Positions 51,238-63,139 of a DNA stretch of 64,000 bases are shown here, in pieces (within the stretch, counting starts at the first letter, position 1; each line of letters starts with the position of its first letter). The position numbers were made by a program, and so were the translations under genes. The DNA comes from Candidatus Nitrospira kreftii (GTDB lineage Bacteria > Nitrospirota > Nitrospiria > Nitrospirales > Nitrospiraceae): positions 3,580,501 through 3,644,500 of the forward strand of contig CP047423.1 in assembly GCA_014058405.1 (NCBI GenBank), written 5' to 3'. A model generated the notes under the pieces. The model was given only the letters and a program-made list of their open reading frames with translations. It was not told where the DNA came from and searched no databases.

Positions 51238-51362
51238 GATTCCTCCATGGAAATGGTAAGATAATTCCGGTATTGGTATCTCCTACGGAGCACCGCTCGT
51301 GCTTGAAGCAAATCGCCACGAATCGGTTCCGATCAAGACCCCAGGGTACCATACTGAATCCT

Positions 51363-52364
51363 ATGATGAACCATTCCATGAATGAACTTGCCTCTTCCTT
51401 TCAGCCACCACTTCCTCTCCAGAATGCCCATCTCATGACCCTCATGCCCCGGTACTGGCCACGGGATACGTCGCTACTAGGATTGCCACAGGAAGAACGG
51501 CTGTTCACCGTAGAACCGCACACGCAGCTAAAAGGTTACTGTCATTGGCAAATCGATCGTACATCGTCTCCGACGGCTATTCTGGTTCATGGCCTTGAGG
51601 GCTGCAGCGAATCTGGTTATATGCGAGGTATTGCGGCTAAGGCCTATCGGGTCGGTTTCAACATCATTCGCATGAATCAACGTACATGCGGCGGAACGGA
51701 ACACCTCTCCCCAACTCTTTATAACAGCGGATTGAGCGGGGACTATCGCGCTATCGTCAATGAATTGGTCAACCGTGATGGGCTCGGCCGGATTTGGCTG
51801 GTAGGCTATTCAATGGGTGGCAACCTGGTGCTCAAAGCGGCTGGTGAGCTTGGGCGGAGTCAGTCGGCTCTTGCAGGAGCCGCCGCCGTCTGTCCGAACA
51901 TCAACCCAACCGTTTGCGCTCGCGCACTAGAAGAACCTCGCAATTGGATGTACCATCGCCACTTTGTAACCAGATTAAAATCTCGACTCCGACGAAAAGC
52001 GGCTCTGTTCCCTGGACGATGGGATCTTTCGATGCTTGATCAAATCACCACCATCAGTGAATTTGATGATCGTTATACCGCAAGAGACGGCGGCTATCGA
52101 GATGGAGCCGACTATTACAATCGGTCAGGAGCGCGCCACGTGCTCGACGCAATTGCCGTTCCTACCCTTATCATCACCGCACAGGATGATCCGTTCATTC
52201 CTTACTCGATGTTCACGGAGGCGAAAATCCAGTGGCATCCACAGATTGTCCTGGTGTCACCTCGCTACGGCGGGCACTGTGGCTTCTTCCATCGGAGCCG
52301 GAACGGCGAAGATTCCTACTGGGCTGAGAACCGGATCCTTGATTTCTTGCGAGAACGAATCTAA
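51363..52364 (+). CDS. YheT-type alpha/beta hydrolase
   Basis: Hydrolase of the YheT/EMB8 family, 333 residues from the ATG at 51363. The start HLMTLMPRYWPR, oxyanion segment LVHGLEGCSESGY, nucleophile elbow GYSMGGN, acid DDPFIP and histidine GGHCGFF are all present. Such proteins are putative lipid or acyl esterases. Upstream frame to 51273 has no support; ATG at 51366 or 51378 are alternatives. No ribosome site is clear. Confidence 0.9.
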   Translation: MMNHSMNELASSFQPPLPLQNAHLMTLMPRYWPRDTSLLGLPQEERLFTVEPHTQLKGYCHWQIDRTSSPTAILVHGLEGCSESGYMRGIAAKAYRVGFNIIRMNQRTCGGTEHLSPTLYNSGLSGDYRAIVNELVNRDGLGRIWLVGYSMGGNLVLKAAGELGRSQSALAGAAAVCPNINPTVCARALEEPRNWMYHRHFVTRLKSRLRRKAALFPGRWDLSMLDQITTISEFDDRYTARDGGYRDGADYYNRSGARHVLDAIAVPTLIITAQDDPFIPYSMFTEAKIQWHPQIVLVSPRYGGHCGFFHRSRNGEDSYWAENRILDFLRERI

Positions 52365-52452: not shown

Positions 52453-53940
52453 TTAGGCAATCACGTTCTGAAGGTGGGATTGAACATCTTCGACGTAGGT
52501 CTTAAATGGATCCTGCATAGGGAACGGAGCACGGCCACGCACTTGAAAGATCGACCAATTGATAACGTAAGGAGGAAACAACCCGTCTGATTGTGGAAAG
52601 TAATCTGATTCACTGCCGGACCAGACACTGAGGAGATGTTTCACCAACGTACTGCGACCATAGGCTCGTGTATTCTTTGGCGCTTCCTCCATCGCGATCC
52701 GGATCAGAGCGTCCGTCGTCACGCGAGGGACACGCCCCTCCTCCAACAATCCATGATACAGCCCCTTCGCCGGATTTAGGTTGTGATACTCCAGATCCAA
52801 GCTCTTCAGCATCGGATCGTCCCAATTGAGATTTTCCGCCTCTCGAAAAGACTCCAACAACCAAAGCTTAGAAGCCCAATCAACGCGCCCAACAAGTTTC
52901 TGATAATCTCCGTGCAAGTCATGAAGCACTGATGCCCATTGAGCAAGAACCCAATCGGTTTCCTCATCCTGTCCCTTGCAATGCTTCAGCGCACATTCAA
53001 GGAATCGTTCTTGAATCTCAAGAGCAGACATAGTCTCATGAGACTGCAGCTGAACTGACCAACGGCGTTCCTGATCCTGCGAAATTTCCTGAAGAGTTTC
53101 CACAGGTTCGTTGATTTCCAAGTCCTGAGGTGCATGCCCTTCTTCAATGAGCTGCAGCACGAGGCCTGTAGTCCCCAGCTTGAGCGCCGTTGCGTATTCG
53201 GTCATGTTGGAATCGCCCAGCAGCAGATGAATCCGTCGGTATTGATTGGGGTCGGCCAACGGTTCATCTCTCGTATTCACAATCGACCGATTGTGCTGCA
53301 CCCATTCGAAGAAATCGTTCACGATGTAGTCCGCACGCTGAGAGATTTGGAAGGGCAGCTCCGATATATGCTGGGTGCCGGAAGCCGAACGTGGAACAAG
53401 TAACCGGTCCATCTGGATCCAGGCATCCTGAGGGGCTGCTGAACCGACACGTCCAGAGCCGGTAAAAATCTGCCTGGTCACAAGAAACGTCACAAGCGGA
53501 ACCATCCCCCGTCTCGAAAAAGGGAATCGTCGAGACACTAGGTAGTTCTCGTGTGATCCAAAGGTCGCATCCGTCTCATGGTCGATGTTGTTCTTGATCA
53601 ACGATACCTGGTCACAGAATCCGAGAGCTTCGATCGTTCGCTGCAATAAAAGGTCACCGGCACGGTCCGACGCTACCACATCCATGAGGGAATGACATTC
53701 CGGCGAAGCATACTCCAAATGCCCCATGTCTAAATAGATTCGTCCGGCGTTCGTGAGAAATCCTCCATTGCCTGGAGGCTCGTCATGCCCGCGATGATGC
53801 AAGTCCAGCACACCGCGCCGCTGCACCTGGAAGAGATGGTCACGAATCTTATGCGCAAACCACGTCGGGGATAGGTCCGGTCGATCCTCGTGGATTAAGA
53901 GTCCGTATTCAGTCTCCAACCCGAAGATACGTTTCAACAT
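52453..53940 (-). CDS. pafA: UBact/Pup ligase PafA
   Basis: Carboxylate-amine ligase that uses ATP to join the C-terminal glutamate of the Pup-like modifier to target lysines. The 495 residues begin RIFGLETEYGL and contain YLDMGHLEYASPEC, where D71 matches the catalytic base of PafA, and NTRDEPLADPNQYRRIH. It lacks the roughly 40-residue insertion that marks Dop, so it is the ligase. It begins four bases after prcA and is the last gene of the cluster. Partner is the UBact protein at 55625. Confidence 0.95.
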   Translation of the reverse strand: MLKRIFGLETEYGLLIHEDRPDLSPTWFAHKIRDHLFQVQRRGVLDLHHRGHDEPPGNGGFLTNAGRIYLDMGHLEYASPECHSLMDVVASDRAGDLLLQRTIEALGFCDQVSLIKNNIDHETDATFGSHENYLVSRRFPFSRRGMVPLVTFLVTRQIFTGSGRVGSAAPQDAWIQMDRLLVPRSASGTQHISELPFQISQRADYIVNDFFEWVQHNRSIVNTRDEPLADPNQYRRIHLLLGDSNMTEYATALKLGTTGLVLQLIEEGHAPQDLEINEPVETLQEISQDQERRWSVQLQSHETMSALEIQERFLECALKHCKGQDEETDWVLAQWASVLHDLHGDYQKLVGRVDWASKLWLLESFREAENLNWDDPMLKSLDLEYHNLNPAKGLYHGLLEEGRVPRVTTDALIRIAMEEAPKNTRAYGRSTLVKHLLSVWSGSESDYFPQSDGLFPPYVINWSIFQVRGRAPFPMQDPFKTYVEDVQSHLQNVIA

Positions 53941-53944
53941 GTTA

Positions 53945-54754
53945 TTACGAGAGTGATGGGCTCAGATCTTTGGGGAGCATTGTTTTCAGTTCATCGATTC
54001 CAAGGGCTCGATACTTGGAGGGCCCTTGCACATGGCGATCAAGTAAAACACATTCGACCGTCTTTTTGGCAATACAACGCTGCAAATAGGCATACAGTGT
54101 CTCAGAGTCCGTCGCCTGCTGATCAGAGCCGGTCCTTGCCTCATCATGGCCCTCTCCATCGTCCAGTGCTCGTCGTTGCGCTCGATCACCGACCGCCCAC
54201 GTACGAATTGCCGCACCTACAGCGTCCTCGAGAGACGCAATAGACTGTTCTCGGAGATATCCAGCCATCTTCTGCTCGACCGCCGACGTCGCGGCAAGCA
54301 CCGCATACTGGCTCCTTTCCTCAAACGTTCCGTCGTAATTGATCGTCAAGAACCCGTCTTTCCCGGCTTTCTGTCCTAACTCTGCCAGCAAGATTTTTAT
54401 GATGAAGGGAGCTTTGAACACTTCTTCGAACGCCTGCTTGATTGCCGGCGCCATACCGTACTTCACCAGTCGACTTCCGGTCACATCGGAGGCGGAGCGA
54501 TTGAACCCTTCGACGTGAGCCATCTCCAATAGATTGAAGCGCAGCTTCTCAAGATCGGCCGGGTGACCCATCCCTCCAAGGGCAAGACGATCGTAAATCT
54601 CATAAAGCTTAGGTGTACCCTTGCTCATCGTCATGAGCAGAATGCCGCGCGCGCACGTGACGCCGACGACAGGCGCCCCCTCCCTAAACTGCTCATCGAG
54701 ATAGGTCCGGCGATTGCCAACCGCTTCGACCCATTTATATGGTTCTTCATACAT
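53945..54754 (-). CDS. prcA: 20S proteasome alpha subunit
   Basis: Alpha subunit of the bacterial 20S proteasome, forming the outer gated rings. The 269 residues match bacterial PrcA: PYKWVEAVGNRRTYLDE at the start, VTCARGILLM, KLYEIYDRLALGG and VTGSRLVKYG. It has no catalytic threonine, as expected. A polar insert near 205-225 (DDGEGHDEARTGSDQQATD) enlarges a loop. The start overlaps the prcB stop by eight bases. Confidence 0.95.
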   Translation of the reverse strand: MYEEPYKWVEAVGNRRTYLDEQFREGAPVVGVTCARGILLMTMSKGTPKLYEIYDRLALGGMGHPADLEKLRFNLLEMAHVEGFNRSASDVTGSRLVKYGMAPAIKQAFEEVFKAPFIIKILLAELGQKAGKDGFLTINYDGTFEERSQYAVLAATSAVEQKMAGYLREQSIASLEDAVGAAIRTWAVGDRAQRRALDDGEGHDEARTGSDQQATDSETLYAYLQRCIAKKTVECVLLDRHVQGPSKYRALGIDELKTMLPKDLSPSLS

Positions 54755-55520
54755 GGCGGCTAACCTTAGATTCGAATAAGGGCTTCAACTGCGCGTCCGG
54801 CATCGTACGCACGCCGGATGCCGTGATGAATTTGATCACCGGATAGAGACCAGCGTCTCGGTTGACTCCTCCAGTCGCGCTGTCAAACTCTGCAGCGCTC
54901 GTCAATAATCGCAATGCCTGAACGGTGGCCTGCTCTTCAGGTATCACACTCAACGGCTGTTCGCCCCATGTATTCAAGTAATGCATGATTCCGCGAATGG
55001 TCGGTGAACCGGACCCGGATACCGCATAGTCCACTCCTTCGAACTCCGCGCCGAGAATATCGTAAAAATAGATCTTTGCCGCTTCCTGGTCGAAGTCATA
55101 CCCGGCAAAAATCGGCGCCACAGCACCCGTACCCGCCAGCGCCGCGGGGACGTTGTCTTTCAGCAATTTCGAAAGGGCCCTGAGTTTCCCCTCAAAGCTA
55201 AGCTCTTGAAGCTGTGTCCGTCGATAATACTTGAACGAATGTTCAAGGATGCGCGCCATTTCATATGCGGTCGCCGGCACTCCGGCGATTGCCATGACAC
55301 TATGCCGATCGATTTCCAATACCTTGTCAGTGCGGTCGTACATCACCATATTGCCGGCTGTTGCACGCCGATCCCCAGCGACCAACACTCCATCGCGATA
55401 CTTGAAGGCAAGAATCGTCGTAGCCATTGTCAGTTCCTGCCCTCGCGCAGCCTGGCCAGGCAGGCCAAATACATACCCCTGTTCTCTCAACAGCTGATAG
55501 AAATCGCTCTGCATACCCAT
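54747..55520 (-). CDS. prcB: 20S proteasome beta subunit
   Basis: Catalytic beta subunit. The 257 residues start with a 33-residue propeptide; cleavage before T34 (TTILAF) frees the nucleophile threonine. Counting from that residue, the expected D17 and K33 are present in AGDRRAT and RTDKVLEID, so the site is complete. The chain continues with GDYAVSG-like SGSPTIRG residues. AGAGG precedes the ATG at 55520. It lies about 105 bases after the UBact gene. Confidence 0.96.
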   Translation of the reverse strand: MGMQSDFYQLLREQGYVFGLPGQAARGQELTMATTILAFKYRDGVLVAGDRRATAGNMVMYDRTDKVLEIDRHSVMAIAGVPATAYEMARILEHSFKYYRRTQLQELSFEGKLRALSKLLKDNVPAALAGTGAVAPIFAGYDFDQEAAKIYFYDILGAEFEGVDYAVSGSGSPTIRGIMHYLNTWGEQPLSVIPEEQATVQALRLLTSAAEFDSATGGVNRDAGLYPVIKFITASGVRTMPDAQLKPLFESKVSRHV

Positions 55521-55624
55521 TCGTACCTCTTGAGACGTGAACCGTGAAAAATAAAAGGTTTATAGGCTCTCTCAGAAACGATGTTCGTTCTCTACCTTTC
55601 ACCTCTCACTTTTTACTTCTCACA
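55521..55624 (-). repeat. Degenerate GTGARAAGT-type repeats between UBact and prcB
   Basis: On the minus strand GTGAGAAGTAAAAAGTGAG and AGGTGAAAGG form a run of short degenerate repeats, with CACGGTTCACGTCTC nearer prcB. They could be a low-complexity insertion; no promoter is clear. Confidence 0.4.
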
Positions 55625-55816
55625 CTATTCTCCCGTTCGCTGTCGGTACCGCTCTGCCTGCTTCGGATCAACTTTACGCATTCGTTTCATCAGATTATCC
55701 TTATCCGGCGATCCGGTCTCCGGACGACGTGGCCCGTCTCCTTCTCCTTGTTGAGGCGACTTTGGCATGGGGTCGACCGGCCCTTCGCGTCGTTCAGGCA
55801 TCGTACTGTGTCTCAT
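55625..55816 (-). CDS. UBact: UBact ubiquitin-like protein modifier
   Basis: A 63-residue ubiquitin-like modifier, unrelated in fold to ubiquitin but functionally like Pup. It is polar and probably disordered, with a helical part KRMRKVDPKQAERYRQ and an ending RQRTGE. The terminal glutamate means no deamidation is needed before conjugation, unlike Mycobacterium Pup, which ends in glutamine. AAAGGAG lies nine bases before the ATG. The start overlaps the dop stop (ATGA). Identity rests on the tail and on the locus. Confidence 0.92.
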   Translation of the reverse strand: MRHSTMPERREGPVDPMPKSPQQGEGDGPRRPETGSPDKDNLMKRMRKVDPKQAERYRQRTGE

Positions 55817-57339
55817 ACCTGTTTACTCCTTTCGTTATCCCACACCGTCAATGCATCAGTCGGTGAAGACGCCTGTTGGAAGATCTGAGCACATCGTCGT
55901 ATGGCACCCGGGGCAAAAAGATCTCCCATATCGAGCGTTCGTGACCGAAGCCCGCCGGTAAACTGAATTTGTTCCCACTGAATCGACTTGATCTGATCCG
56001 GAAACCGCTGCACACAAAGCCCACGCAGTCCGGCACGCGTATCACTGGGACCGTTTTGGATCGCTTCTTCAATCATGTGGTCGGTTGTGATCCGCCACAC
56101 TTTCCCTTCCGCTTCAAGGCCCAGGTAGAGTCCCTGGTCAGGATTCACATTGTGGTATTCCAGGTCCAGACTGGCTAACCAAGGATCATCCCAACCAATA
56201 CGCTCTTCGCGCATAAACGTCTCGAGCAACCACTGCTTGGTTACCCAATCCAACTTCCCGACTAGCTGTGCGCGGTCTTGCGTCAAAAGGTGCAAGACCG
56301 CTCCCCATTCCTTCAACAGCCAATCCGTTTCCTCATCTAAGCCGGCCAACATCCGCCGTGCCGATTCGTAATAATATTCTTGTATCTCCAGTGCAGAGAG
56401 TCTTCGCCCATTCTGCAACTTCACTGCGATCTTGAGATCAGGATCTCGCGATAACTGTTTCACGGCAACCACCGGCTGATCCAGGGTGAGATCAGGGGCA
56501 GCTCCTCGTTCGAGCAGATCGAGAACAAGGCGTGTTGTCCCAACTTTGAGCGCTGTCGCATACTCGCACATATTGGCATCGCCGATGATGAGATGGAGTC
56601 GACGATACTTCTGGCGATCCGCGTGAGGCTCATCTCTGGTGTTGAGAATTGGACGGTTGTGCATCGTATCAACCCCGAGCTCTGCCTCCATAAAGTCAGC
56701 GCGCTGCGAGAGCTGATACAGCCCTGGGAGATGTCCTGACTCTTGCGCTTCAGTACCGACCTTCCCAGCACCGGCGATGACCTGTCGGCTTACCAGAAAC
56801 GGAACGAGGCCTGTGACAAGAGTTGAAAATGGAACGACTCGCGAGACAAGGTAGTTATCGTGGCATCCGTAGCTGTGGCCATGGAAATCCGTGTTGTTTT
56901 TGTAGAGCCTGACGTGGTCTCCTCCCAGCGCCCTATTGCGCCGTTCAGCAGCGCGAAGAACGATGCGTTCCCCAGCCCGATCCTGCGCGACAAGATCCCG
57001 GAGAGTCCGACATTCAGGGGAGGAGTATTCGGGATGCGTATGGTCATTGTAGAACCTCGCGCCGTTCGGCAATACGAGGTCACTCTTCATTTCATGGAAT
57101 GAAAATGGTCGAGCCGCATCCACCTTTGCAAACTCATCTTCTTCCTGATCCTGCTGCAAGCCGGAAACACGGAAGCCACGGGCATCTTCATGTGGGTCTT
57201 CTCTGGTGTAATCCCACCGCCGCTCGAAGGACTCAACGACATGTGCCCGAACCAATTCCATGGATTCGACGACGGGATCAACTTCGGCCACGTCATCGCG
57301 TGTGATACCGTACTCAGTTTCGATACCGAAAAGACGCAT
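55813..57339 (-). CDS. dop: Depupylase/deamidase Dop
   Basis: Homologue of PafA that cleaves the isopeptide bond between modifier and substrate. The 508 residues begin RLFGIETEYGI and hold YNDHTHPEYSSPEC with the Dop-type D99, and a charged insertion of about 40 residues (about 43-85) that is the Dop loop. NTRDEPHADRQKYRRLH is conserved. Because UBact already ends in glutamate, removal of the modifier is its likely role. The ATG at 57339 is preferred over a TTG three codons upstream. Confidence 0.95.
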   Translation of the reverse strand: MRLFGIETEYGITRDDVAEVDPVVESMELVRAHVVESFERRWDYTREDPHEDARGFRVSGLQQDQEEDEFAKVDAARPFSFHEMKSDLVLPNGARFYNDHTHPEYSSPECRTLRDLVAQDRAGERIVLRAAERRNRALGGDHVRLYKNNTDFHGHSYGCHDNYLVSRVVPFSTLVTGLVPFLVSRQVIAGAGKVGTEAQESGHLPGLYQLSQRADFMEAELGVDTMHNRPILNTRDEPHADRQKYRRLHLIIGDANMCEYATALKVGTTRLVLDLLERGAAPDLTLDQPVVAVKQLSRDPDLKIAVKLQNGRRLSALEIQEYYYESARRMLAGLDEETDWLLKEWGAVLHLLTQDRAQLVGKLDWVTKQWLLETFMREERIGWDDPWLASLDLEYHNVNPDQGLYLGLEAEGKVWRITTDHMIEEAIQNGPSDTRAGLRGLCVQRFPDQIKSIQWEQIQFTGGLRSRTLDMGDLFAPGAIRRCAQIFQQASSPTDALTVWDNERSKQV

Positions 57340-57424
57340 AATCTCCAAGTGCCATGTTTATAAGCAACAGGCTGAAAGATTCGAATCACCTGCATTTTTT
57401 CAGCTTGTTACCGGCAACTATCTC

Positions 57425-59170
57425 TCAAATAATCTGATTCACGACGCGTTCTTCCGTCTGGCGGCCTCGGCGAAATGAGGAAATGCCGACGACCTGTTCC
57501 GGGTGATGATCGAGCAGCTTCAACCATTCCTCAGCTGCATCATCCGGCGGCAACATGTCACCGTCTCGGAATTCTTCCGAGACAGCGTCCATGAGGTCCT
57601 TGGCCAACAATCCAGACGGTTGGCCTGACTGAATTATTCGCTCGATCGCTTTTTCCTTGGCTCGTTGAACGATCGACGCCAAGATGGCTCCACTCATAAG
57701 ATCGCCCCTATAGAGAACCTTAGATTGACCATTCCTGAGCCGGATTGATAGCACCCGGTTGTCGTCTGTTCTGCGGAAGATGGATTCGATCACGTCTTGA
57801 ACCAGCAAGTTCACAGTCCGTGTCGGCTCGTTACCTCGCTCGGTAAGCAACACTGGATCCAGCGGCAAGTCCGTCGTCAAATACACCTTCAGAATTTCAG
57901 CGGCCGAATTCTTATTTGGCCGATTCACTTTGATCTTACGGTCGATGCGGCCGGGTCGGAGTACGGCAGGGTCGATCAAGTCGGGGCGATTGGAGGCGAG
58001 AATAATAACTACATCGCGCAGCGACTCAATGCCGTCCATTTCGCTGCAAAACATCGGCACGAGCGTGTTTGAGATATTGAAGGACCGCATGGCCCGTCGC
58101 GTCCCGAGAATCGACTCGGCTTCGTCGATAAAGATGAAGGGTAGAGCGCCACCTCGGCGCCTTGCACGAGCCTGTTGGAAAAGATCACGGACGATCCGCT
58201 CGGATTCCCCGAGCCACATATTCAAGATTTCTGGGCCTTTTACATGGAGAAATGCTCCGCTCGATACCGGTAGCAGTTTGTCCCCATCGGTCGTGCGCTC
58301 GGGCTTGGCTTCGCTGACCAATTTAGCCAGGCTACCAGCTGCCGCTTGCCCAATGAGTGTTTTCCCACATCCTGGGGGTCCGTAAAGAAGAAATCCTTTG
58401 GGTTGCGAAAACTTGAACTGCTCGAACGTCTCCGGATGGAGTAGTGGATATTCAATCGCCTTCCGAATTGCAGCAATCGCCTCATGCTGCCCGCCGATCT
58501 GCTCCCATGTCACCTTGGGCGTTTCATCGAGCATATGCCGACTGGCTTTGCGATCCACAAGTTTCTCAATCGCGATGCGGTGATTAGGATCGATACGAAT
58601 TTCATCTCCGGCCTTCAGGTCCACACCGAGCAAATCGGTCGATCGCTGCAAGATCAACAACTGTCGGCCCATTTCCTGTTCAAACCGTAACCGCCCGTCG
58701 GGCATGGCCTCAGCCAGTTTCAAGATGGGCCCGTTGCGATCGTACCCTAGCGTTTTAACTACCGCATAGGCTTCATTGACCAGAATCTGTGTTCCAATTT
58801 TGAGATCAGTGTCCGGCACGCGAGGATCCACGTTGGCGTAATACTCAGCCCCACCGACGACGATACGGGCAAGCCCTTCGCCTGGCACATCGACCAAGAT
58901 ACCGATACGGTTCGCCGGTGCCGTAAGCTTGGCGACCACCTCACTGACTTTTTGGAATTCCAGTTCACGCTGCTGAGAGGTGGCCTCAGATAGCATGACG
59001 GCATGACGCACCTTGTACAGCAACTTCTGGCGAGGGTCACCCTCAGGAAAGGAAGCTAAACATTGCTCGATCAGTTCAAGTGGATCTGATCGTCCAGAAG
59101 CCGTGCTCTTCCCCATCTCCGTATCTGGCTGGCTTCCAGCTCTCTTTTCGCCCATTTGATGGTCGCTCAT
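57425..59170 (-). CDS. mpa: Proteasome-activating AAA ATPase ARC/Mpa
   Basis: Hexameric ATPase that unfolds tagged proteins and threads them into the 20S core. The 581 residues show an N-terminal coiled-coil (about 45-85), two OB-fold interdomains (about 90-205) and an AAA module with Walker A GPPGCGKT (264-271), Walker B FIFIDEAE (345-352) and arginine fingers in the LRPGRIDR segment. The C-terminus reads VVNQII, not the QYL docking tail of Mycobacterium Mpa. TGAGG lies before the ATG. It is the first gene of the cluster. Confidence 0.95.
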   Translation of the reverse strand: MSDHQMGEKRAGSQPDTEMGKSTASGRSDPLELIEQCLASFPEGDPRQKLLYKVRHAVMLSEATSQQRELEFQKVSEVVAKLTAPANRIGILVDVPGEGLARIVVGGAEYYANVDPRVPDTDLKIGTQILVNEAYAVVKTLGYDRNGPILKLAEAMPDGRLRFEQEMGRQLLILQRSTDLLGVDLKAGDEIRIDPNHRIAIEKLVDRKASRHMLDETPKVTWEQIGGQHEAIAAIRKAIEYPLLHPETFEQFKFSQPKGFLLYGPPGCGKTLIGQAAAGSLAKLVSEAKPERTTDGDKLLPVSSGAFLHVKGPEILNMWLGESERIVRDLFQQARARRRGGALPFIFIDEAESILGTRRAMRSFNISNTLVPMFCSEMDGIESLRDVVIILASNRPDLIDPAVLRPGRIDRKIKVNRPNKNSAAEILKVYLTTDLPLDPVLLTERGNEPTRTVNLLVQDVIESIFRRTDDNRVLSIRLRNGQSKVLYRGDLMSGAILASIVQRAKEKAIERIIQSGQPSGLLAKDLMDAVSEEFRDGDMLPPDDAAEEWLKLLDHHPEQVVGISSFRRGRQTEERVVNQII

Positions 59171-59532
59171 GGAATCCTCATATCAAAGCGTCCATCATCA
59201 TAACAATAAATCGAAGTTGGGTGCTATCAGCGAGTCTCCGAAGACTTGCATCGAGATTTACAGAGCTAAGCTCACGTTTCTTACCGCTGGGGGCAAAATA
59301 ATAATAGCCAACCGCTACAGCGAATGTACAAGATCTGTATTCATACTATGGCCTTGCTGATGCCACCCGGAAGGGTAACAGACTCGAAAAGCTCTGAATG
59401 AACCCGTGACCCCATACGAACGAGGAGGCCCCTCCCCTCACTGCGGTAATTGCGAGATCCTACAGCGTCGATTATTGTCACGTGAACGACAGCTCTGAGC
59501 CTCACTCAAAGACGGGAAGGAGATTCGCCATA
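59171..59532. other. Divergent intergenic region, no supported element
   Basis: About 362 bases separate the ARC/Mpa gene from the FG-GAP lipoprotein. It must hold promoters for both directions, but I find no box pair good enough to call. AT-rich bases at about 59295-59310 may belong to one. No riboswitch, tRNA or coding frame is supported. Confidence 0.5.
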
Positions 59533-61395
59533 ATGATAAAGAGGAAGATGCCCGATCGTCGGTTTTCGAGACGCTACAGCCATCCTTTGCTCAGCTCATC
59601 CTTATTCGCTAGCAGACTTTTGGTCAGCGGATTCCTATTGCTGGGACTAGCGAGTTGCGGAAACGACGAAGGTGCGACGGTGTCTCCCACCACACCCCCC
59701 ACTGTCAACACCCCAGCCAGTCTTGCCGCTTTGACCCTCTCCAGTGGTCAGCTGAATCCCACCTTCGACCCAACCGTGACCAGCTATAGTACGATGTTTA
59801 TTGGCACTACAACTCTCACACTCACCCCAATAGCACCAGACCAAACCATCACCGTGAATGGAGCAACGGTCGCCAGCGGGAGCCCATCCGCTCCCATCAC
59901 ATTATCACCGGGAACATCCATAATCCCCATCACAGTCACCAGCACAACTGGTCAAACGAAAACCTATACCATCACAGCACACCGACTGGCGCAAGAGTCT
60001 TTCGCCAAAGCATCCAACACGGGGCTAAATGATGAGTTCGGTATTAGTGTCGCCATTGACAGTGACACGCTTGCGGTGGGCGCCTATAGGGAAGATAGCA
60101 ACGGTACGGGTGTCAATAACGGTGCCGAGATCAACAATGCTGCTAGCAACAGCGGGGCCGTCTATGTTTTTACCCGCACCGGTTCTGCCTGGACACAGCA
60201 GGCCTATATCAAAGCCTCTAACACAGGCGCCGGCGATGAGTTCGGCCGCAGTGTAGCGCTCAGTGGCGACACGCTGGCGGTAGGTGCATACCGCGAAGAC
60301 AGTAATGGCATAGGGGTCAATAGCAGCACTGAGGCTGACAATAGTGCTCCCGACAGCGGGGCCGTCTATGTTTTTACCCGCACGGGTTCTGCCTGGACAC
60401 AGCAGGCCTATATCAAAGCCTCTAACACAGGCGCCGGTGATCAGTTCGGCTTCAGTGTGACACTCGAGGGTAATACGTTAGCAGTTGGCGCCTTGGTGGA
60501 AGATAGCAACGCCACAGGTGTGGGAGGAAATGAAAGCGACAACGGCGCCACTGGAAGTGGAGCCGTTTATGTCTTCACGCGCACCGGTACTACATGGACA
60601 CAGCAGGCCTATATCAAAGCCTCTAACACAGGCGCCGGTGATCAGTTCGGCATCAGCGTGGCCCTCGACGGAGACACGCTGGCGGTCGGAGCAAATAGTG
60701 AGGATGGAAATGGGACCGGCGTCAATAGTGGGCCCGAGGCTGACAATAGTCTTCCCGACAGCGGCGCCGTTTATGTCTTCACACGCACCGGCACCACTTG
60801 GGCCCAACAGGCCTACATTAAAGCCTTCAATACAGGCGCCGGCGATCAGTTCGGACGCAGTGTAGCAATCAGTGGCGACACGCTGGCGGTGGGAGCGTTC
60901 CGTGAAGACAGCAGTGGCACAGGAGTCAATAGCGGAGCTGAATCTGACGATAGCGTTGTTGACAGTGGAGCCGTCTATGTCTTTACGCGCACCGGTACCA
61001 CCTGGACGCAGCAGGCCTACATTAAAGCCTCCAATGCAAGTGCAAACAATCGACTCGGTTTCGCCATCGCCCTCACAGGCGATACCCTGGTCGCAGGGTC
61101 ATCCGGTGAGGATGGTGACAGCACCGGTGTCGGCGGCGATCAAAACAACAACAGCGCGACCGATAGCGGTGCGGTATATGTCTTTACACGCACTAGCTCT
61201 AACTGGACACAGCAAGCGTATGTCAAGGCTTCCAATACAGGTGCCGGTGACCAATTCGGTGTTAGCGTCGCCCTTTCCGGTGACACAATAGCGGTGGGTG
61301 CAGCCACAGAGGATAGCAATGGCACTGGAGTCAATAGTGGAGCTGAAGCCGACAATAGCGCGATCGACAGTGGTGCCGTTTATTTGCTGCGCTAA
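59533..61395 (+). CDS. Lipoprotein with cadherin-like domain and FG-GAP-like repeats
   Basis: Exported lipoprotein of about 620 residues. The signal ends GLASC, so it is probably anchored in the outer membrane. After a T/P-rich linker comes a cadherin-like beta-sandwich domain (LAALTLSSGQLNPTFDP to TYTITA), then seven repeats of 67-68 residues with GD.FG.SVAL.GDTLAVGA and DSGAVYVFTRTG, an FG-GAP-like beta-propeller as in PF14312-type proteins. Adhesion or surface binding is likely. ATG at 59548 is an alternative start; the GTG at 59482 seems too early. Confidence 0.85.
   Translation: MIKRKMPDRRFSRRYSHPLLSSSLFASRLLVSGFLLLGLASCGNDEGATVSPTTPPTVNTPASLAALTLSSGQLNPTFDPTVTSYSTMFIGTTTLTLTPIAPDQTITVNGATVASGSPSAPITLSPGTSIIPITVTSTTGQTKTYTITAHRLAQESFAKASNTGLNDEFGISVAIDSDTLAVGAYREDSNGTGVNNGAEINNAASNSGAVYVFTRTGSAWTQQAYIKASNTGAGDEFGRSVALSGDTLAVGAYREDSNGIGVNSSTEADNSAPDSGAVYVFTRTGSAWTQQAYIKASNTGAGDQFGFSVTLEGNTLAVGALVEDSNATGVGGNESDNGATGSGAVYVFTRTGTTWTQQAYIKASNTGAGDQFGISVALDGDTLAVGANSEDGNGTGVNSGPEADNSLPDSGAVYVFTRTGTTWAQQAYIKAFNTGAGDQFGRSVAISGDTLAVGAFREDSSGTGVNSGAESDDSVVDSGAVYVFTRTGTTWTQQAYIKASNASANNRLGFAIALTGDTLVAGSSGEDGDSTGVGGDQNNNSATDSGAVYVFTRTSSNWTQQAYVKASNTGAGDQFGVSVALSGDTIAVGAATEDSNGTGVNSGAEADNSAIDSGAVYLLR
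60007..61380 (+). repeat. Seven 204/201-base coding repeats
   Basis: AAAGCNTCNAAC-type units start at 60007, 60211, 60415, 60616, 60820, 61024 and 61225, that is steps of 204, 204, 201, 204, 204 and 201 bases. Units two to four are almost identical in DNA across GGCCTATATCAAAGCCTCTA, which suggests recent duplication or gene conversion. They encode the FG-GAP-like repeats. Confidence 0.9.
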
Positions 61396-61599: not shown

Positions 61600-62724
61600 C
61601 TAATTGACGGCCTGAAGGATGACCGACACTTTCTCACGCCGTTTTCCACGTAGGATCTCCACGCTCACGTGATCACCGACTTTGTGCTCCTCCATCACAT
61701 CCATCAGATCATCAACCGTGGTCATCGGCTTCCCAGCAACCGATACGATGATGTCACCGAGCTGAATCCGGCCAGCCACAGTTTCACGGGCGCCCTTCAG
61801 GCCTACACGATCAGCCGGTCCCCCGCGTGTGACCTTGCCGATGATCAAACCTTTGATCCCCCAGCGCTTCGCCATCGAATCCGGCACAAGAGAAACACCC
61901 AACCCAGGACGAATGAGTTGTCCGTGCTTGATGAGCTCTGGAACAATACGATTCACGGTATCGACGGGGACGGCAAATCCAATTCCTGCATAGGCTCCGC
62001 TCGGACTCACGATTTGCGTATTCACGCCGATCAGCCGTCCGGCACTGTCTAGCAAGGGACCGCCCGAGTTTCCAGGATTGATTGCCGCATCGGTTTGGAT
62101 TACCCCTTCAATCGTGCGGTTGGACATTGACTTGATTGTTCTGCCCAAGGCGCTCACAACTCCGGTCGTGAGTGTATGATCAAGCCCGAACGGGTTTCCA
62201 ATCGCGAGTACCTTTTGTCCCACGCGCAAGTCATGGGAAGAACCGATAGCCAACGGCTCCAGTTGACTATCCGGCGCCTGAATTTGCAGCACTGCCAAAT
62301 CATGATCAGGATCGGCTCCAACTACCTTGGCTTGGTACTCGGCACGATCAGCCAGTGTCACCTTGATTGAATTGGCTCCATAAATGACGTGAAAGTTGGT
62401 GACAATATGGCCTTGCTTATTCCAGATGAAGCCTGATCCCGATCCTTGTGGAACCTCCATAATGTCGAGTGACCAAAAATCACGCTGTATAGCCGTGTTC
62501 GCAATAAACACAACAGATTTTGTCGCTCGCTCGAAGACAGTGGTGGTGGCCCGTTCGTCGGGTCCCAACTCTGCTGGCGCTGGGGTCACTGGACGGGGTT
62601 TGCCTTCCGGTCCGTCATACACAGCGCCAAGTGGCTTGCCCCATTCGCCTAATGTAATAGCCGGCGCAGCCATTGTTGCGCTGAAAAGCAGCAGGAGGGT
62701 TACGGATCGTACGTGCCTATTCAC
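61600..62724 (-). CDS. Trypsin-like (DegP/HtrA-type) serine protease with PDZ domain
   Basis: Exported protease of 374 residues. A signal peptide (about 1-20) is followed by the trypsin-like domain with H112 (TNFHVIYG), D142 (DPDHDLAV) and S220 (NPGNSGGPLL), and one PDZ domain (about 280-370, RPGLGVSLVP to EILRG). One PDZ makes it DegS/HhoA-like. The GTG at 62724 overlaps the YjbQ stop by eight bases; the longer frame to 62976 lies wholly in that gene and is not credible. Confidence 0.93.
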   Translation of the reverse strand: MNRHVRSVTLLLLFSATMAAPAITLGEWGKPLGAVYDGPEGKPRPVTPAPAELGPDERATTTVFERATKSVVFIANTAIQRDFWSLDIMEVPQGSGSGFIWNKQGHIVTNFHVIYGANSIKVTLADRAEYQAKVVGADPDHDLAVLQIQAPDSQLEPLAIGSSHDLRVGQKVLAIGNPFGLDHTLTTGVVSALGRTIKSMSNRTIEGVIQTDAAINPGNSGGPLLDSAGRLIGVNTQIVSPSGAYAGIGFAVPVDTVNRIVPELIKHGQLIRPGLGVSLVPDSMAKRWGIKGLIIGKVTRGGPADRVGLKGARETVAGRIQLGDIIVSVAGKPMTTVDDLMDVMEEHKVGDHVSVEILRGKRREKVSVILQAVN

Positions 62725-63139
62725 CGAGGACCTGCACAATGAGATCACGCGTTCTTGAGCGGGTATCGAAATCGACCAGGACGATTTGTTGCCAAGTTCC
62801 CAAAAGAAGAGCGCTGCTTGTAAATGGAATGGTGATAGAAGGCCCTTGAAGTTGCCCTCGAAGATGGCTGTGACCGTTGTCTTCTCCAGGATTGACCGTG
62901 TTGTGCTGAAACCGAGGATCAGGAGGAATAACGCGATCCCAGAACGTTTTCGTGTCGGCGCGAATCCCCGGTTCATCTTCGATAATCATTATCGAAGCGG
63001 TCGTATGCTTGACGAACACGGTCACAATTCCATCTCGAACCTTCGACGCCGCGACGGCTTCGGCAACGGACTGTGTAATATTAGCGATATCCGTGCTGCC
63101 TGCCATACGAATCGCCAAGGGAACAGACTGAACGGTCAT
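62717..63139 (-). CDS. YjbQ-family (UPF0047) protein
   Basis: Compact beta-rich protein of 140 residues, family UPF0047/YjbQ; some members have weak thiamine phosphate synthase activity. Motifs are GIVTVFVKHTTASI, NEDEPG-type IEDEPGIRAD, GHSHLRGQLQG and LGTWQQIVLVDFD. Metal-binding histidines are in those motifs. Its start overlaps the HD gene stop (TGATG) and its stop overlaps the protease start, so all three form one unit. Confidence 0.94.
   Translation of the reverse strand: MTVQSVPLAIRMAGSTDIANITQSVAEAVAASKVRDGIVTVFVKHTTASIMIIEDEPGIRADTKTFWDRVIPPDPRFQHNTVNPGEDNGHSHLRGQLQGPSITIPFTSSALLLGTWQQIVLVDFDTRSRTRDLIVQVLGE

Follow-up and report, generated by a model that had tools for sequence, protein, structure and literature searches.

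Candidatus Nitrospira kreftii probably maintains a complete UBact-proteasome pathway with a docking code of its own, in parallel to a full canonical Pup-proteasome system. This reading, to which we assign a probability of roughly two in three on the basis of sequence comparisons, concerns an operon at positions 52453-59170 on the minus strand of a 64,000-nucleotide stretch of the chromosome (contig CP047423.1; the whole stretch is hereafter called the window). The UBact modifier was reportedly described by Lehmann et al. in 2017.

The UBact operon and a second, canonical Pup system

A check of the open reading frames (ORFs) of the window confirmed six of them in this segment, on a single strand and in the order ARC-dop-UBact-prcB-prcA-pafA, as the initial annotation had claimed:

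57425..59170, minus strand: ARC, Mpa-like AAA+ proteasomal ATPase of the UBact type, 581 residues (pup_AAA match plus AAA and proteasomal OB domains)
55813..57348, minus strand: Dop of the UBact type, with Dop-loop (NCBIfam match, residue alignment)
55625..55816, minus strand: UBact modifier, 63 residues, C-terminus RTGE (NF033388 match)
55628..55639, minus strand: C-terminal RTGE of UBact, the predicted conjugation end
54747..55520, minus strand: PrcB, proteasome beta subunit (family match; predicted Thr1 at 55419-55421)
53945..54754, minus strand: PrcA, divergent proteasome alpha subunit (family match, phmmer, model)
52453..53940, minus strand: PafA-like putative ligase of the UBact type, without Dop-loop (catalytic Asp71 at 53728-53730)

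The start codon of dop is probably the ATG at 57339. The genes are tightly packed: the stop of dop overlaps UBact by 4 bases (ATGA) and prcB overlaps prcA by 8, both as previously read, while gaps of 4 and 104 bases lie between prcA and pafA and between UBact and prcB, respectively. The modifier scored 79.4 bits against the NCBIfam UBact family NF033388 (cut-off 35), and it presents a G[EQ]-type ending next to Dop/PafA and 20S genes. Together with the gene set and order, this bears out the claim of a complete UBact-type operon like those published from Gram-negative phyla. As the C-terminal residue is Glu, a deamidation step would be needless, a point that had been made from the sequence and that holds here; some close relatives end in Gln.

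The remaining five proteins (Dop, PafA, PrcA, PrcB and ARC) matched the right families, all below the NCBIfam equivalog cut-offs, which were set on the canonical Pup type; ARC, for example, scored 434 bits against pup_AAA (cut-off 504.75). PrcB displays the expected Thr1, Asp17 and Lys33 pattern (ATTILA..GDRRAT..DKV). PrcA had no Pfam match at 1e-4; it was aligned to Rhodococcus PrcA by phmmer (8.5e-11), and its AlphaFold2 model (mean predicted local distance difference test score 87.7) has the alpha fold, with the 20S alpha subunits of Mycobacterium tuberculosis and Rhodococcus as best structural matches. The comparison with other Nitrospirota loci proposed in the initial annotation was carried out: the same gene set recurs, in the same order, in dozens of species, which excludes a chance arrangement, and fixed differences from the Pup type emerged. 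The identity of the operon as a UBact system is near certain.

The operon had also been described as a full machine. It is complete, but it is only one of two such systems, since the same genome (a single contig of 4,125,728 bases) also carries a canonical Pup-proteasome set. A Pup-ligase family search of this genome returned four genes instead of two. The second operon lies at about 1.111-1.117 Mb, 2.5 Mb from the window operon, and comprises Mpa, Dop, PrcB, PrcA and PafA genes, all five over the curated NCBIfam cut-offs, with an Mpa tail that reads GHYL. It leaves no space for a tag gene between dop and prcB, and we considered whether one tag might serve both operons. This was ruled out by a true Pup gene encoded 48 kb away. 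The sole PF05639 match in the genome (77 bits, C-terminus KGGE) is found at 1063282-1063470 (L096:8229-8474), an orphan between the pyrophosphatase gene hppA and recJ; the tag of the window operon is accordingly not a PF05639 Pup.

The site of the orphan is constant in the genus, with hppA as neighbor in 30/30 loci checked and recJ wherever the contig reaches that far. The pup genes that we examined from outside the order are located between dop and prcB. Within the order, the sister family likewise has pup at a large distance from the Mpa gene. The orphan at 1,063,282 indicates that pup was moved and that the canonical operon is not tagless. The apparently missing tag of canonical Nitrospira operons is thus explained by relocation, and UBact is not its substitute. 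As a separate observation, four genomes (G020, G052, G142 and G173) have two Pup genes each over the cut-off.

Coexistence of the two systems is widespread. Among 79 genomes of the genus, UBact was over the cut-off in 66 and Pup in 74. In the phylum sample of 295 genomes, UBact was present in 103; 96 genomes had both tags, seven had UBact only and 41 had Pup only. Proteasomal ATPase matches in 38 genomes fell into two score classes (above 700 and 349-472 bits), usually with one member of each per genome. Where a tag is absent, the matching ligase pair is absent too: UBact-less genomes (G153, G138, G238 and others) keep the canonical pair only, and Pup-less genomes (the complete genome G096, G139 and G146) keep the UBact-type pair only.

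The UBact locus is also carried by N. defluvii and by the isolate N. moscoviensis NSP M-1 (G002, locus L257; 4,589,485 bases), the latter with both sets. The presence of both sets in one-contig genomes, this isolate among them, excludes mixing within metagenome-assembled genomes (MAGs) as the source of coexistence. Two assembly matters deserve mention. The apparent second UBact-prcB-prcA segment of G024 (locus L294, G024:C35:118500-130500), with 100-base scaffold gaps and 82% identity, was rejected as a scaffolding chimera of two strains. Meanwhile, G175 has UBact and Pup, yet three ligases and one ARC; its canonical Dop and Mpa seem to be missing, perhaps through an assembly gap.

This distribution also bears on the idea that the window operon is a decaying relic beside an active Pup system. 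Such decay would fit the 41 of 137 Pup-bearing genomes of the phylum sample that are without UBact, as well as the one decaying locus that we found (L159, described below). However, reading frames and catalytic residues are intact in nearly all loci examined and UBact is kept in 66/79 genus genomes, making a relic highly improbable.

Motor-core contacts, pore loop and coiled coil

We compared 40 UBact loci with 37 Pup loci, largely from the same genomes; counts for the PrcA pocket refer to 40 and 35 loci, respectively. The relevant features of the window operon are:

58358..58381, minus strand: ARC Walker A, GPPGCGKT
58205..58219, minus strand: ARC pore loop, MWLGE (canonical KYVGE)
57428..57439, minus strand: ARC C-terminal tail, NQII, with an aliphatic penultimate residue (Tyr in canonical Mpa, GHYL/GQYL)
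54608..54610, minus strand: PrcA K49, equivalent to M. tuberculosis Lys52, carboxylate contact of the docking tail, conserved
54560..54568, minus strand: PrcA GHP, with His at the position of M. tuberculosis Lys67 in 40/40 UBact loci
54401..54403, minus strand: PrcA I118, equivalent to M. tuberculosis Glu119 (Tyr contact in that species), aliphatic instead

In the cryo-electron microscopy structure of M. tuberculosis Mpa on the 20S core, the tail Tyr touches Arg26 or Glu119 of the alpha subunit, and the terminal carboxylate touches Lys52 (PMC9599533). All 37 motors from Pup loci have Tyr as their penultimate residue, whereas 39 of the 40 from UBact loci have Ile or Val there. A further 64 UBact loci, which overlap the first 40 partly in species and include those of N. 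moscoviensis and N. defluvii, contain no Tyr and have I/V-type endings only. The canonical GQYL/GHYL ending is therefore absent from the window ATPase and from both sets of UBact loci (0/40 and 0/64).

The pocket of the core differs at the corresponding positions. Position 119 is Glu in 35/35 Pup loci and Ile, Leu or Val in 40/40 UBact loci, and position 26 is basic in 35/35 Pup loci vs 11/40 UBact loci. Meanwhile, Lys52 is kept in all 75 loci (40/40 UBact, 35/35 Pup) and Asp144 in 39/40 UBact loci. The alignments suggest that the residues reading the Tyr were lost or made hydrophobic along with the Tyr itself, and that those reading the carboxylate stayed. An earlier interpretation of the change from GK(Y) to GHP in PrcA as loss of the pocket lysine was withdrawn, as the published structure (PMC9599533) and a recount place this site at Lys67, with Lys52 conserved.

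A natural case of joint loss was found in L159 (G196:C37:2500-11100), from a single MAG. Here prcB and prcA are collapsed by an in-frame deletion into one short in-frame ORF, and a stop codon stands immediately ahead of the II-tail codons of ARC; the genes for UBact, Dop and the PafA-like protein are intact. Joint loss of core and tail fits a tail whose job is docking on that core.

The UBact-type ARC might instead have given up proteasome docking altogether, acting as a free unfoldase or segregase while the core is fed otherwise. No UBact-type ARC has a penultimate Tyr, and in M. tuberculosis the GQYL motif is required for core opening (PMC8142254). Against this, the tail is far from random (the Ile/Val counts above), the pocket keeps Lys52 and Asp144, the sole locus with a broken core is also without the tail, and the complete genome G096, which has the UBact system alone, still pairs a UBact-type ARC with a UBact-type core. 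Taken together, these points make a loss of docking quite unlikely.

The motor differs in two further respects. The pore loop reads KYVGE in 37/37 Pup loci vs MW[LV]GE in 40/40 UBact loci, so that the canonical Tyr is a Trp in every UBact locus. In most UBact loci, the tag-binding coiled coil measures 48 residues rather than 55, a difference of exactly one heptad.

The ligase pair

Two loops are informative about the division of labor between Dop and the PafA-like protein:

57172..57219, minus strand: Dop-loop core, RWDYTREDPHEDARGF
53290..53328, minus strand: PafA alpha-loop, YIVNDFFEWVQHN, with the canonical Thr-Thr replaced by Val-Gln

The invariant catalytic residues (D64, R207 and H221 in C. 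glutamicum, among others) are kept in both paralogs of both systems. The window Dop retains the Dop-loop, the catalytic Asp, Thr217 and His231 (A. cellulolyticus numbers); the roles of Dop residues, including a Thr that contacts the tag end, have been described (PMC8599861). The PafA-like protein is without a Dop-loop and retains Asp64, Arg207 and His221 (C. glutamicum numbers). Canonical ligases are further determined by a helical alpha-loop with a conserved Thr-Thr (PMC7947786). UBact-type PafA has Val-Gln instead in nearly all 40 loci, with Leu for His211, and in the model of the window protein this loop is strand or loop rather than helix, at moderate confidence. The assertion that every active-site residue was intact is thus upheld for PrcB, ARC and Dop, but in PafA only for the invariant residues, since the alpha-loop Thr-Thr and one His in the region of the active site are replaced.

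The two halves of these enzymes display different histories. In trees of the N-terminal part, PafA groups with PafA and Dop with Dop (support 94.9). In the C-terminal part, by contrast, the trees unite the Dop and PafA of each system (Shimodaira-Hasegawa-like approximate likelihood ratio test, SH-aLRT, 99.9), and the grouping by enzyme is rejected (approximately unbiased test, AU, p 0.0098). At whole length, the PafA-like protein joins the UBact-type Dop (SH-aLRT 97), with grouping by enzyme not rejected (AU p 0.153). Windowed identity displays the same switch near residue 280. Either gene conversion inside each operon or joint adaptation to a single tag would produce this pattern; if the two enzymes of a line have to suit the same tag, their C-terminal parts should group by system, as observed. 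The whole-length tree suggested that PafA and Dop of the UBact line arose independently. This idea is unsupported, as the AU test at full length does not reject orthology and it is the C-terminal part that carries the signal.

These observations raise the question of whether the PafA-like protein could be another Dop-like hydrolase, or an enzyme with both activities, with a split of labor unlike that of the Pup system. Its Dop and PafA scores are nearly equal (330 vs 320 bits), like Dop it is shorter by one residue behind the catalytic Asp, and the nearest structures to its model are those of Dop. The Val-Gln replacement, the non-helical alpha-loop and the whole-length tree point the same way. 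On the other hand, it is without a Dop-loop, its N-terminal part groups with PafA, the grouping by enzyme is not rejected for the full-length proteins, and two hydrolases would leave the system without a ligase. We regard a second hydrolase or a dual enzyme as improbable, and we treat the protein as the putative ligase.

Collectively, motor-core contacts, pore loop, coiled coil and ligase alpha-loop all differ from those of the Pup type, indicating that the window machine is not a plain copy of the canonical one.

Two probable parallel pathways and their relation to known systems

The gene sets, their co-occurrence, the matched loss and the fixed differences are read directly from the genomes. 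From these we infer the enzymatic roles, the docking geometry and the functional separation of the two lines. The PafA-like enzyme would join the C-terminal Glu of UBact to lysines and Dop would take the tag off. ARC would bind tagged proteins via its shortened coiled coil, pull them by its Trp pore loop and feed a PrcA7-PrcB14-PrcA7 core. The aliphatic tail of ARC would dock with its carboxylate still meeting the conserved pocket Lys (M. tuberculosis K52), and the penultimate Ile/Val, in place of the Tyr of canonical Mpa, would face the Ile/Leu/Val that replaces Glu119. The canonical Pup system, with its GHYL tail, Glu119 pocket, KYVGE pore loop and a Pup ending in GGE encoded elsewhere, would run alongside.

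Extending this to Nitrospira and most UBact-bearing Nitrospirota, the two pathways may be insulated, with no tag, ligase pair, motor or core in common, and separated by a docking code in which an aliphatic tail and an aliphatic pocket residue (UBact) stand against a Tyr tail and a Glu pocket (Pup). We see the chances of insulation, docking code included, as evenly balanced.

Several points weigh against a maintained UBact pathway with a separate docking code. The two tags resemble each other over their final seven residues (Y-x-Q-[KR]-x-G-[EQ]), making cross-recognition possible. Given the missing canonical Thr-Thr and the non-helical alpha-loop of the model, the assignment of the ligase depends on the absent Dop-loop, gene position and elimination. 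As the split between the types is one deep divergence, counts such as 40/40 reflect long maintenance and not 40 independent events. Finally, the comparisons cover the Nitrospirota, the only phylum that the contig scan returned.

The likeness of the tag ends would also suit a single mixed network in which UBact and Pup, ligases and cores are interchangeable and the second set adds only dose. The pocket Lys and Asp144 kept in both cores and the shared invariant ligase residues are consistent with it as well. However, a tag is lost together with its own ligases, the pocket, tail, pore-loop and coiled-coil states remain separate in every genome that keeps both systems, and the C-terminal parts of the enzymes track the system and not the enzyme. 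A mixed network is, in our judgment, unlikely, and we favor a UBact pathway maintained in parallel to the Pup system.

The surroundings of the window operon include an alpha/beta hydrolase gene convergent with pafA (51273-52364, plus strand), an adjacent gene (59482-61395, plus strand) for a protein that is probably secreted and contains seven FG-GAP repeats plus a cadherin-like domain and, near the operon, an HtrA/DegP-like trypsin-PDZ protease (61600-62976, minus strand). A search for the activator Bpa/PafE gave no match, and the control genomes gave none either.

The published UBact-proteasome systems have the same tag family and G[EQ] C-terminus, the same gene order with homologs of Dop, PafA, PrcB, PrcA and ARC, and a Nitrospirae host. 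What is added here is the complete Pup set in most hosts, the changed motor-core contacts, the Trp pore loop, the shorter coiled coil and the changed ligase alpha-loop, some of which may stand in the 2017 description. In the accessible literature, most subscription papers being beyond reach, we found no earlier account of the matched loss or of the changes in docking and pore loop. With the Mpa/Dop/Pup/PrcBA/PafA system of M. tuberculosis, the window operon shares gene order, domain make-up, catalytic residues and the pocket Lys52; unlike it, it has another tag family, no GQYL/GHYL tail, a replaced Glu119 and scores below the curated cut-offs.

Pup has been reported in nitrospirae (Iyer et al. 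2008, PMC2588565), and a 2017 cluster analysis placed Gram-negative subunits in a separate group (PMC5666114). Two divergent copies in one genome were already noted for Leptospirillum in 2012: according to a figure legend in a review, L. ferrooxidans has the whole system twice, in strongly differing versions (L1 and L2), with an L2 Pup that lacks GGE (PMC3511204). That description resembles the situation in Nitrospira, and the absence of GGE fits UBact. In contrast to that one genome, coexistence here extends across the Nitrospirota and is accompanied by matched loss and by fixed differences at the interface; in the Leptospirillum-type complete genome G096 we found the UBact set alone. A 2026 review still gives Rhodococcus erythropolis as apparently the only species that has multiple alpha and beta subunits (PMC13022661). 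Nitrospira likewise has more than one core subunit pair in one bacterium, but differs in that the whole pathway (tag, ligase, depupylase, motor and core) occurs twice, from deeply separated lineages.

Cells with two homologous disposal lines would offer a natural test case for the evolution of specificity between tag and ligase and between motor and core, and the paired change of tail and pocket may serve as a ready-made set of swap mutations.

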